From: Dethiobacter sp. | Lineage (GTDB): Bacteria > Bacillota > Dethiobacteria > Dethiobacterales > Dethiobacteraceae | Length of the DNA stretch: 64,000 bases | Assembly: GCA_020725465.1 (NCBI GenBank) | Contig: DYEY01000035.1 | Coordinates: 1 to 64,000, forward strand | Direction: 5' to 3' | Part shown: piece by piece, positions 13,266 to 61,074 of the stretch | How positions within the stretch are numbered: the stretch's first letter is position 1 | Layout of the letters: each line of letters begins with the position of its first letter | Program-made: the position numbers and the translations under genes | The notes under the pieces: generated by a model | What the model saw: only the letters and a program-made list of their open reading frames with translations | Told to the model about the DNA's origin: nothing | Database searches by the model: none

Positions 13266-13742
13266 GTGAAAACGGCGATATTTTATGTCTCGGTTCACCA
13301 CGGCAACACTGCCAGGTTGGCCAAAGCAGTGGGGGAGGCAATGGGAGCTGATATTTACAGCCCGGAGCAACTTACGCATGAGCTCCTGAAGAACTACGAC
13401 CTGGTGGGGTTTTTCTCCGGTATCTATAAATTCCGGCACCACGACGACCTCATTGGCGCCGTGGAAAAGCTGCCGCGGCAAAACGGAAAGATGGCTTTTA
13501 TCGGGTCAACCAGCGGTTCGGGGAGAAAAGCTTACCATAAGAAACTGGCGGATGCCCTGGCCAGAAGAGGGTTCCGGATTATCGGGGAATACACCTGCCG
13601 GGGTTTTATTACCTTTGGGCCCTTCGGCCTGTTCGGGGGAGTGAACAAAGGCAGGCCCGACGAAAAGGACTTGGCCGAAGCCGCTGCCTTCTTTAACAAC
13701 ATGGCCGCGAACCAGGTCAAGAGTCAGGTAGACTCCAAATAA
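13266..13742 (+). CDS. Flavodoxin-family protein
   Basis: A 158-residue protein. MKTAIFYVSVHHGNTARLAK carries the phosphate-binding loop (S-x-H-x-GNT) of flavodoxins; FFSGIYKFRHH and FIGSTSGSGRK match the loops that hold the FMN isoalloxazine ring, and YTCRGFITFGPFGLFGG resembles the C-terminal loop of the flavodoxin domain in small clostridial members. It should carry FMN and act as a cytoplasmic electron carrier or quinone/flavin reductase-like protein. GTG at 13266 is chosen because AAGGGGG lies about eight bases upstream and family members begin at this point; an ATG at 13245 has no such site. Confidence 0.8.
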   Translation: MKTAIFYVSVHHGNTARLAKAVGEAMGADIYSPEQLTHELLKNYDLVGFFSGIYKFRHHDDLIGAVEKLPRQNGKMAFIGSTSGSGRKAYHKKLADALARRGFRIIGEYTCRGFITFGPFGLFGGVNKGRPDEKDLAEAAAFFNNMAANQVKSQVDSK

Positions 13743-13847: not shown

Positions 13848-14276
13848 ATGAAGAAGCAGAGAGTGTTGTTTTTGTGTACCGGTAACTCGGCACGCAGCCA
13901 GATGGCTGAAGCCTTTTTGCGGCATTACGGTGGACACCGGTTTGAATCCTTTAGTGCGGGACTGGAGCCCCAGGGTATTAATCCTTATACACGGCAGGTA
14001 ATGGAGGAAATCGGCATCGGTCTCCACGGCCAGCGCTCCAAAAATGTAGACGAATACCTGGGCAAAATGCATTTCAACTATCTGATTACGGTTTGCTCCA
14101 ATGCTGAGGCAAGATGCCCTGCCGTTTTCCCGGGCGCAGGCAAACTCCTGCACTGGTATTTTGACGACCCGGCGGCGGCTACAGGTACCGTTGAAGAGAA
14201 ACTGGCGAGGTTTCGTGAGATACGGGACCAGATTAGCCGGAAAATCAGGGAGTGGCTGGAAGAAGAGGCTTGCTGA
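13848..14276 (+). CDS. arsC: Thioredoxin-dependent arsenate reductase / low-MW phosphatase family
   Basis: A 142-residue member of the low-molecular-weight phosphatase fold. The N-terminal VLFLCTGNSARSQMAEA holds the C-x5-R-S active-site loop; AGLEPQGINPYTRQVMEE and the later VCSNAEARCPAVFPG pair of cysteines are the redox relay seen in Bacillus-type ArsC, and WYFDDPA supplies the catalytic Asp region. It reduces arsenate to arsenite in the cytoplasm using thioredoxin. The ATG at 13848 follows GGTGAGGTG. No arsenite pump or ArsR gene is nearby, but a second, unrelated ArsC/Spx-fold protein (selenocysteine candidate) follows 400 bases downstream. Confidence 0.85.
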   Translation: MKKQRVLFLCTGNSARSQMAEAFLRHYGGHRFESFSAGLEPQGINPYTRQVMEEIGIGLHGQRSKNVDEYLGKMHFNYLITVCSNAEARCPAVFPGAGKLLHWYFDDPAAATGTVEEKLARFREIRDQISRKIREWLEEEAC

Positions 14277-14591: not shown

Positions 14592-14673
14592 AGCCGGCCC
14601 GCAAAAGGCGGCTTCCATGCAGTACAGAAATCAACTTAGTGATGTTTCCTTTTAAGGAAGGAAGAAAAATAAC

Positions 14674-15018
14674 ATGCTGGTGTTTTACTGTTTCCCAGCC
14701 TGACAGACCTGTAAGAAAGCGAAAGCGTGGCTTTCGGAAAAAAAGGCCGAATTTAAGTACCGCGATATCCTGAAAGACCATCTTACCGCGGCTGAAATTA
14801 CTGAGCTGGCGAAACGCCATAATCTCGAACCCATCAACCTGCTGAACCCCAAGAGCACCGCCTATAAGTCCCTGAAAGTGGATGCTGCCGCCCTCTCCCG
14901 GGAGCAGGTGGCCGAACTGCTTTCAGCCAACCCCCGCCTTATGATCCGCCCGCTTCTTTCCGACGGCAAACGACTGGTCCTGGGCTTCAAGCCGGAGCAA
15001 ATGGAAGCTTTGCTTTAA
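14674..15018 (+). CDS. Spx/ArsC-like redox protein, probable selenoprotein (TGA = Sec)
   Basis: A 115-codon frame (114 residues) containing one in-frame TGA at codon 10 (14701-14703). It reads MLVFYCFPA-U-QTCKKAKAWL, and aligns with the Spx/YffB/ArsC-like family start (YP-x-C-x2-C-RKA), the TGA falling exactly on the first Cys of the C-x2-C redox motif, giving U-x2-C. After it the frame continues with family features to full length: EFKYRDI, LLNPKSTAYKSL, IRPLLSDGKRLVLGFKPEQM. AAGGAAGG lies upstream of the ATG at 14674. A hairpin of SECIS form follows the TGA. Family members act as arsenate reductases or thiol-redox regulators; which applies here is unknown. A plain nonsense mutation is the alternative, but the exact position and hairpin make Sec more likely. 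Confidence 0.8.
14701..14736 (+). promoter_or_regulatory. Candidate bacterial SECIS element
   Basis: Begins with the TGA codon at 14701. CGAAAGC (14720-14726) pairs perfectly with GCTTTCG (14730-14736), closing a three-base GTG loop. The loop opens 23 bases after the TGA with a G first, which fits the known geometry of bacterial SECIS hairpins (apical loop 16-37 bases downstream with a G in its first two positions) recognised by SelB. Confidence 0.65.
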
Positions 15019-15040
15019 GGATACAAAAGAAAACCAACTA

Positions 15041-15076
15041 AAAAATGCTGCCAGGCACCGACCTGGCAGCATTTTT
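15041..15076. terminator. Bidirectional rho-independent terminator
   Basis: AAAAATGCTGCCAGG (15041-15055) pairs with CCTGGCAGCATTTTT (15062-15076) around a 6-base loop. The U-tract works on both strands, ending the selenoprotein gene and the convergent AbiEii gene. Confidence 0.9.
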
Positions 15077-15726
15077 CAGACCTTATCATTTTTAACGGGC
15101 AGTATTTTTCTTGTCAGGCGCTCTGTTTCCTGTCGGAAAAAATCTTTAACTCTTTCCCACTCCACCTGTTGCAGCATGTCCAGGGGCGGAGATTTTTCCG
15201 CGTCTTCAAAAAACTGAAGGCTGCGCAGAATATGGTAAAGTGAATATTGACTTCCGGAGTATTTTCTGGGGAAAAAATCCCTCAGAAGCTCTTCAAGCGT
15301 TATGATATTCCGGGTAATGAAGTACAAGTCCGTAAAATCCTTATTGGAACCTCTGTTGGCTATGGCGACGATTTTCATCAGGGCTATATCCTTTAGATCG
15401 GCCAAAGGTATGCCCATAAAAATCCGGGTTGGAAAAAGGAGGGGATAAGGGTATACAAGAAAGCTTAATTTTATGTTATTAATAAAACCATGCAAAGACC
15501 CCGCTGATGAAAATGAAACAGTAAAATTCTCCTGTGCCGTAAGGATGCCGGCTATTTTTTCCGGCTGTAGCTCAGGTGAAAAAAAATCAAAGTCTTCAGA
15601 TTTGCGGTGGCCAAGCTGCAGGGCTGCCGCGGTTCCACCGGCCATGTAAAAACCCTGTAGCAGTTTATTTTCATTTAGTTTTGCCAGCAATTTGATTCGG
15701 TCGCCGGAGAGGACGTTTGCAAACAA
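15076..15726 (-). CDS. AbiEii/AbiGii-type nucleotidyltransferase toxin
   Basis: A 216-residue protein. YMAGGTAAALQLGHRKSEDFDFF is the GG-[ST] ... D-x-D nucleotidyltransferase core of AbiEii-like toxins, followed by IPLADLKDIALMKIVAIANRGSNKDFTDLYFI, the conserved second region with the KD-x-DL pattern. Such proteins are toxins of type IV modules used in phage abortive infection. TTG at 15726 is supported by AAGGGGGA at good spacing, and the frame overlaps the end of the upstream antitoxin-like gene by 52 bases, consistent with a coupled two-gene module. Catalytic residues appear intact. Confidence 0.82.
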   Translation of the reverse strand: MFANVLSGDRIKLLAKLNENKLLQGFYMAGGTAAALQLGHRKSEDFDFFSPELQPEKIAGILTAQENFTVSFSSAGSLHGFINNIKLSFLVYPYPLLFPTRIFMGIPLADLKDIALMKIVAIANRGSNKDFTDLYFITRNIITLEELLRDFFPRKYSGSQYSLYHILRSLQFFEDAEKSPPLDMLQQVEWERVKDFFRQETERLTRKILPVKNDKV

Positions 15727-57005: not shown

Positions 57006-57068
57006 AGAAGTTTTCAGGTAAGCAGGAATTACCGGCGGGACGGCGAAATACTGATGAAATTGCATATT

Positions 57069-57178
57069 GACCGGGGGAGCTCCTGTGAGGGGCTGAGAAA
57101 GCAGGTGAACCTGCTGACCCTTTGAACCTGTTCTGTGCCGCGCCAGCGGTACCACTGGGTAATGCCAGCGAAGGGAGG
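57069..57178 (+). promoter_or_regulatory. TPP riboswitch
   Basis: The core reads GGGGCTGAGA (57099-57108), then GACCCTTTGAACCTG (57116-57130) and GGTAATGCCAGCGAAGGGA (57158-57176), the two conserved strands of the thiamin pyrophosphate aptamer. It lies 64 bases after jetD and is followed by a terminator and thiC, so TPP binding should stop transcription of the thiamin operon. Confidence 0.95.
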
Positions 57179-57194
57179 GTGAAACAGTTGTTTG

Positions 57195-60057: not shown

Positions 60058-61074
60058 GTGAGGTTGCAGGATCTGGGTGAATTCGGGTTAATAAACCATC
60101 TGACCCGTCATCTGCCGTCTTATGATGATACGGTGGTTGTTGGCGTCGGGGACGACGCCGCGGTTTTCAGGGCGGCCGCTGGCAGTTTCATGCTCATCAC
60201 CTGTGACATGCTGGTGGAGGGGCGCCATTTCCTGCGGGATAAAATAAGCCCCCAGGACCTGGGGTACAAAGCGCTGGCGGTGAGCCTGAGCGACATCGCC
60301 GCCATGGGCGGCCTGCCGCGCCACGCCGTGATCGCTGTCGGCTGGCCAAAGTATGTGAACCTGGAATACACGGAGAAGTTATACAGCGGGATCCGGGAAG
60401 CGGCGGCAAGCTACGGCGTCAATATCCTGGGCGGGGATACGGTGAAGGCGCCGCAGTTGGTATTGGATGTGACAGTGGTGGGAGAGAGCGGGAGGCCTCC
60501 GGTGACCAGGACCGGCGCCAGGCCCGGGGACGTGCTGGCCGTTACCGGGAGACTTGGCGCTTCGGCAGCGGGGCTGGCCCTGCTGCTGGCCGGTGAAACC
60601 GGCCAGGGGCTGCCGCCGGAGGTGGCAAACAGGCTGGTTGGCGCCCATGTCCGGCCCTTTCCCCGGGTACGGGCGGGATCCGCTTTGGCGGAGGCGGGAG
60701 CCACGGCCATGATTGACATCAGCGACGGCCTGGCAAGCGAAGTGAACCATATCTGCAACGGCAGCGGTACCGGAGCCGCTGTTTATGCCGACAGGTTACC
60801 GGTGGACAACGACACCAGGTGGGCGGCGGAAAAGCTGCAGCGGGATTGGCTGCAGTGGGCGCTCTTTGGGGGAGAGGACTATGAGCTGCTGGTAGCCTTG
60901 CCGGACAGCGCGGTGGCTGCAGCGCGTCAGGCCCTGGCCTGCCTGGAGGTGGAGTTTACCATCATCGGCGAGGTAACTGAACAGAAACATGGGATACAGA
61001 TAGTCGCCGGAAAGGAAACGGTGCCCCTGACGCCCGGCGGCTACGACCATTTCAGAGGTGATTTTGGTGATTAA
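60058..61074 (+). CDS. thiL: Thiamin-monophosphate kinase ThiL
   Basis: A 338-residue PurM/AIR-synthase-fold kinase that makes TPP from thiamin phosphate. It has VVGVGDDAAVF, LITCDMLVEGRHF, LSDIAAMGGLPRHAVIAVGWP, NILGGDTVKAPQLVLDVTVVG, TARPGD-like ARPGDVLAVTGRLG and MIDISDGLASEVNHIC. GTG at 60058 has GGGGGGAGG eight bases upstream, and the family starts with DLGEFGLI here. It overlaps thiD by 8 bases. Confidence 0.92.
   Translation: MRLQDLGEFGLINHLTRHLPSYDDTVVVGVGDDAAVFRAAAGSFMLITCDMLVEGRHFLRDKISPQDLGYKALAVSLSDIAAMGGLPRHAVIAVGWPKYVNLEYTEKLYSGIREAAASYGVNILGGDTVKAPQLVLDVTVVGESGRPPVTRTGARPGDVLAVTGRLGASAAGLALLLAGETGQGLPPEVANRLVGAHVRPFPRVRAGSALAEAGATAMIDISDGLASEVNHICNGSGTGAAVYADRLPVDNDTRWAAEKLQRDWLQWALFGGEDYELLVALPDSAVAAARQALACLEVEFTIIGEVTEQKHGIQIVAGKETVPLTPGGYDHFRGDFGD

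Follow-up and report, generated by a model that had tools for sequence, protein, structure and literature searches.

A Spx/ArsC-fold protein of Dethiobacter that almost certainly contains selenocysteine, and its seemingly uncatalogued clade in the Bacillota

Does an in-frame TGA near the start of a short gene in Dethiobacter sp. encode selenocysteine, and what might the resulting protein do? The gene lies on the plus strand of the window, by which we mean the whole stretch of 64,000 nucleotides that was analysed, and runs from an ATG at 14674 to a TAA at 15016-15018 (14674-15018). With the TGA of codon 10 (14701-14703, plus strand) read as selenocysteine (U), the translation has 114 residues (MLVFYCFPAUQTCKKAKAWLSEKKAEFKYRDILKDHLTAAEITELAKRHNLEPINLLNPKSTAYKSLKVDAAALSREQVAELLSANPRLMIRPLLSDGKRLVLGFKPEQMEALL), in which residue 10 is the U of U-Q-T-C and the resolving Cys13 (TGT, 14710-14712, plus strand) is invariant across the clade. 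The original prediction placed this TGA at the first Cys of a C-x2-C motif and proposed a search for homologues with Cys at that position. Codon 10 does align with the first Cys of CxxC in Spx/ArsC relatives, and full-length homologues carry either a TGA or a Cys codon there. The frame is intact to the TAA, as had been claimed, and conserved on both sides of the TGA, and the 104 residues that follow the TGA are conserved at 45-65% identity in a comparison of homologues. The predicted upstream ribosome site can be read directly from the sequence as AAGGAAGGAAG at 14654-14664 (plus strand). A terminator-like 19-bp inverted repeat lies 3' of the gene at 15038-15079; the scan assigns it to the minus strand, and its plus-strand end is also TTTTT. 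An Rfam search at the locus returned chance matches only.

Downstream of the TGA stands the hairpin CGAAAGC-GUG-GCUUUCG (14720-14736, plus strand), with a 7-bp stem that starts 16 nt after the TGA and a GUG loop (14727-14729) that starts 23 nt after it. The published bacterial SECIS model calls for a loop of 3-9 nt with a G within its first two positions, a stem of 4-16 bp, a distance of 16-37 nt from the UGA and a folding energy of at most -7.5 kcal/mol (PMC13188914). A 45-nt stretch agrees with all of these rules (GUG loop, 7 bp, 23 nt, -8.1 kcal/mol); the bare 17-nt hairpin, at -6.7 kcal/mol, is above the -7.5 rule. Of the 1793 TGA triplets that the window contains, 16 (0.9%) are followed by a hairpin of equal quality at an allowed distance. 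Because the energy of the hairpin was not outstanding against shuffled sequences (z = -1.19, modest evidence taken alone), we used covariation and synonymous conservation as tests.

In all 58 TGA members read, which come from both the window's clade and a second one described below, the TGA is followed at the right distance by a hairpin of suitable shape; an energy of -5 kcal/mol or lower is reached in 38 of these 58 as against 3 of 17 Cys members. Over 43 sequences, 93% of the helix cells are paired, with seven cells compensatory and five G-U, and the covariation score was reached by none of 500 shuffles and was lost when the partner strand was slid. Synonymous pairwise identity is 0.81 in the hairpin codons against 0.30 expected, and 0.39 against 0.38 in the 49 other codons. 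Given such strong synonymous conservation, the hairpin would be a good model SECIS for the SelB of Bacillota. The sequence of the hairpin, though not its position, differs in some members (L065, AGCCAUGGCAUGGCU; L068, GGCCAGGGCCUGGCU). In one relative (L078), codon 19 is TTG (Leu) in place of the TGG of the near-constant Trp19, which overlaps the hairpin loop; there the loop becomes GUU and the stem stays intact.

The reading of the TGA as a genuine stop, whether through a pseudogene, a sequencing error or a restart of translation downstream, can be weighed against the relatives. Homologues were found in 33 of the 98 genomes of the class (E <= 1e-18), and 31 of the 33 have the in-frame TGA, 30 as their sole stop and one (L104) together with an extra TAA; the TGA falls at codon 10 in every class homologue read. 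The remaining two are a gene frameshifted near the motif (L103) and a Cys-type gene (L034). The TGA is also carried by three independently found genome records, two of them Peptococcaceae, and by all of the best 17 profile matches among 398 genomes of the phylum, after which come Cys-type Spx-like proteins. Two genes in the set (L010 and L041) have identical sequences. On the tree, the window's clade comprises 46 Sec members and one Cys member, so that 46 of 47 are TGA-type. L034, the one natural control, has TGC in place of the TGA, retains the peptide KAKTWLSEK and has a broken hairpin. A real stop would fit the two damaged relatives, L104 (genome G060) and L103 (genome G028), which may be pseudogenes or assembly errors, and the downstream restarts of about 90-100 residues that ordinary ORF calling gives in several relatives. 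We consider it highly improbable all the same, given a TGA at the same codon in dozens of independent assemblies, a hairpin that covaries and residues conserved on either side of the TGA, including FYCFP before it. At the sequence level, the recurrence of TGA and hairpin together across dozens of genomes is far beyond chance.

The original prediction also proposed looking for selA, selB, selC and selD, and the genome of the window (2.9 Mb, 98% complete) has all four. Profile searches matched SelA at 505.7, SelB at 383.2 and SelD at 378.5 bits, the tRNA-Sec scored 72.2 against a gathering score of 47, and selA, selB and selD adjoin one another on contig 70. The SelD gene has an in-frame TGA of its own within GGUASK, the known Sec site of SelD, so TGA is apparently used for selenocysteine elsewhere in this genome as well. 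SelB was detected in 87 of the 98 class genomes, and since most of them carry it, co-occurrence with SelB is a weak test; the 11 genomes in which it was not found, among them some that carry the TGA gene, are nearly all incomplete assemblies. Within the window itself, a SelD/PurM-like match at 60121-60828 (plus strand) scores 90.9 bits against a SelD cut-off of 125 and probably belongs to a paralogue family. Given the complete machinery and dozens of relatives with the same TGA and hairpin, we regard it as almost certain that the gene encodes a selenoprotein.

The question then becomes what kind of protein this is. It matches TIGR01617, named the Spx/MgsR RNA polymerase-binding family, at 88.1 bits (curated cut-off 75.05), and the Pfam ArsC family at 67.8 bits. 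Its AlphaFold2 model (mean pLDDT 93) has Spx 3gfk (TM 0.89) and the ArsC-related 3gkx (0.87) as its nearest solved folds, and Spx also leads the profile matches. The sister group of the window's clade consists of Spx/MgsR-like proteins, with modest support (88) on a tree built from few columns by a quick search. Taken together with an Arg92 that is retained in all 47 clade members, these top matches, the sister position and the family name are what one would expect of a Spx-like redox regulator in which a U10-C13 switch alters RNA polymerase binding. We nevertheless find such a regulator unlikely. The protein falls short of the Spx subfamily and equivalog models (81.8, 66.6 and 58 bits against cut-offs of 123, 152 and 159) and, at 114 residues against 131, is without the C-terminal tail of Spx. 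Residues that Spx requires for activation have also changed, since the Spx mutants G52R, R60E and K62E are defective in it (PMC2801614), and the window protein has E at the G52 position (E, S or T in most of the clade) and K and T at those of R60 and K62, both of which are variable in the clade. Compared directly, Spx of Bacillus subtilis (3gfk, 1z3e) shares the fold, Arg92 and the register of residues 10 and 13 with the window protein, but differs in having Cys for Sec, a C-terminal tail, and the G52 and R60 that are absent from the clade. Closer in size are 3gkx and YffB (1rw1), which have the fold at about 114-120 residues and are without the Spx tail, but these are Cys proteins; on the tree 3gkx falls within the second clade, and YffB matches at 48 bits only.

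A second alternative is a selenocysteine-type arsenate reductase within an arsenic-resistance setting. The Pfam ArsC match is in line with it, as is a relative of thioredoxin-type ArsC 0.4 kb upstream, which the original prediction had called a Cys-type ArsC at 13848. There is indeed a gene at 13848-14276 (plus strand), but its product has a different and unrelated fold, that of LMW-PTP (PF01451, with CTGNSARS), and its 132.6 bits are below the 174.3 of the curated thioredoxin-type arsenate reductase cut-off. Arg60 is among the catalytic residues of ArsC, and R60 mutants of ArsC are present among the PDB fold matches; the window protein and its relatives have no conserved Arg at residue 60. 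The equivalog model for arsenate reductase, TIGR00014, is missed as well (46.2 bits against a cut-off of 106). A tie to arsenate reduction is not supported. Among the 16 neighbourhood regions compared, the window included, no arsenic operon recurs and no gene neighbour is shared save between near relatives. The context thus yields no function, and the 13848 gene, of an unrelated fold and with no recurrence beside the selenoprotein gene, was set aside as a partner. In sum, we judge an arsenate reductase to be quite improbable. Further upstream, 13269-13742 (plus strand) encodes a flavodoxin-like protein with weak Pfam matches just below the cut-off, and elsewhere in the window a TPP riboswitch at 57063-57194 (plus strand) is just over its gathering score (54.6 against 54.3 bits).

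We return to the reading that we hold to be quite probable as a whole, in which selenocysteine is inserted by way of SelB and the hairpin into a single-domain UxxC thiol-disulfide oxidoreductase. The hairpin just past the UGA would recruit SelB carrying Sec-tRNA, and selenocysteine would be inserted at position 10, so that the active site of the thioredoxin-fold protein, which has a single domain, reads U-x-x-C. This protein would act as a thiol-disulfide oxidoreductase, possibly on a small oxyanion. The U10 selenolate would attack the substrate and C13 would resolve the selenenylsulfide, while the invariant Arg92, which corresponds to the sulfate-binding Arg of Spx, may help to hold a negatively charged substrate. 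The TGA, the hairpin, the selenium machinery and the fold family have been described above as found; from them we infer the actual insertion of selenocysteine, the redox activity and the role of Arg92. To judge from its residues and predicted fold, the likeliest identity of the protein is that of a stand-alone oxidoreductase of the UxxC type whose Arg binds anions, and on the narrower choice between an enzyme and a regulator we lean towards the oxidoreductase enzyme.

Selenocysteine-bearing ArsC relatives as such are already known, in keeping with the original statement that selenoproteins of the arsenate reductase type had been reported from metagenomes. One case involves cd03032, the Spx subfamily of ArsC. 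It is the 'arsenate reductase 2' of the 2008 Global Ocean Sampling data (42 sequences), which is assigned to cd03032 and has a UxxC motif (PMC2398784). A catalogue of 119 families from 2026 enters it as 'arsenate reductase-like protein' under NF041106, UxxC (PMC13188914). It resembles the window protein as an ArsC-fold selenoprotein with Sec first in UxxC, but against NF041106 (ArsC_rel_Se_1) the window protein scores 30.9 with a cut-off of 85, nine relatives give 26-37 bits or no match, and the cut-off is not reached in any genome of the class. The 'arsenate reductase' selenoprotein of the Sargasso Sea (PMC1088965), which is TIGR00014 in the 2026 catalogue, has the same fold and Sec at the equivalent active-site position, but its motif is UxxS where the window's is UxxC, and the window protein fails TIGR00014. 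An 'ArsC-like' selenoprotein has also been reported in two deltaproteobacteria. The text of the 2026 catalogue does not mention TIGR01617 (PMC13188914), and a search of full-text literature found no paper naming a Sec-type Spx or MgsR. Judged by the NF041106 scores and the catalogue text, the window's clade seems to be uncatalogued.

Because ordinary gene callers truncate the gene, members of this widespread clade of Bacillota selenoproteins have probably been annotated wrongly, as short fragments of the 'arsenate reductase family'. Since the clade adjoins Spx in the tree, it may allow Sec and Cys to be compared directly in the setting of a well-studied redox switch. One could go further and picture an uncatalogued, Bacillota-wide clade of selenium-based redox switches or sensors, as opposed to plain enzymes, sister to Spx, in which Sec is long-standing and reversion to Cys is rare; we regard this picture as unlikely. 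A TGA at codon 10 also occurs in a second clade of ArsC/Spx relatives from this phylum, separate from that of the window (L092-L101; for example L093, 989-1342, plus strand), and one record (L097) holds two tandem copies of the gene. There are six Sec/Cys changes in all on the tree, and since the part occupied by the second clade holds a mixture of Sec and Cys forms, several exchanges between them are likely. Motifs with a Cys in this clade are U-T-T-C and U-S-T-C, and those without the resolving Cys are U-S-T-V, U-T-S-A, U-T-S-V and U-T-S-S. The hairpins of the second clade are different ones, for example AAGCCAAGGCUUGGCUU.
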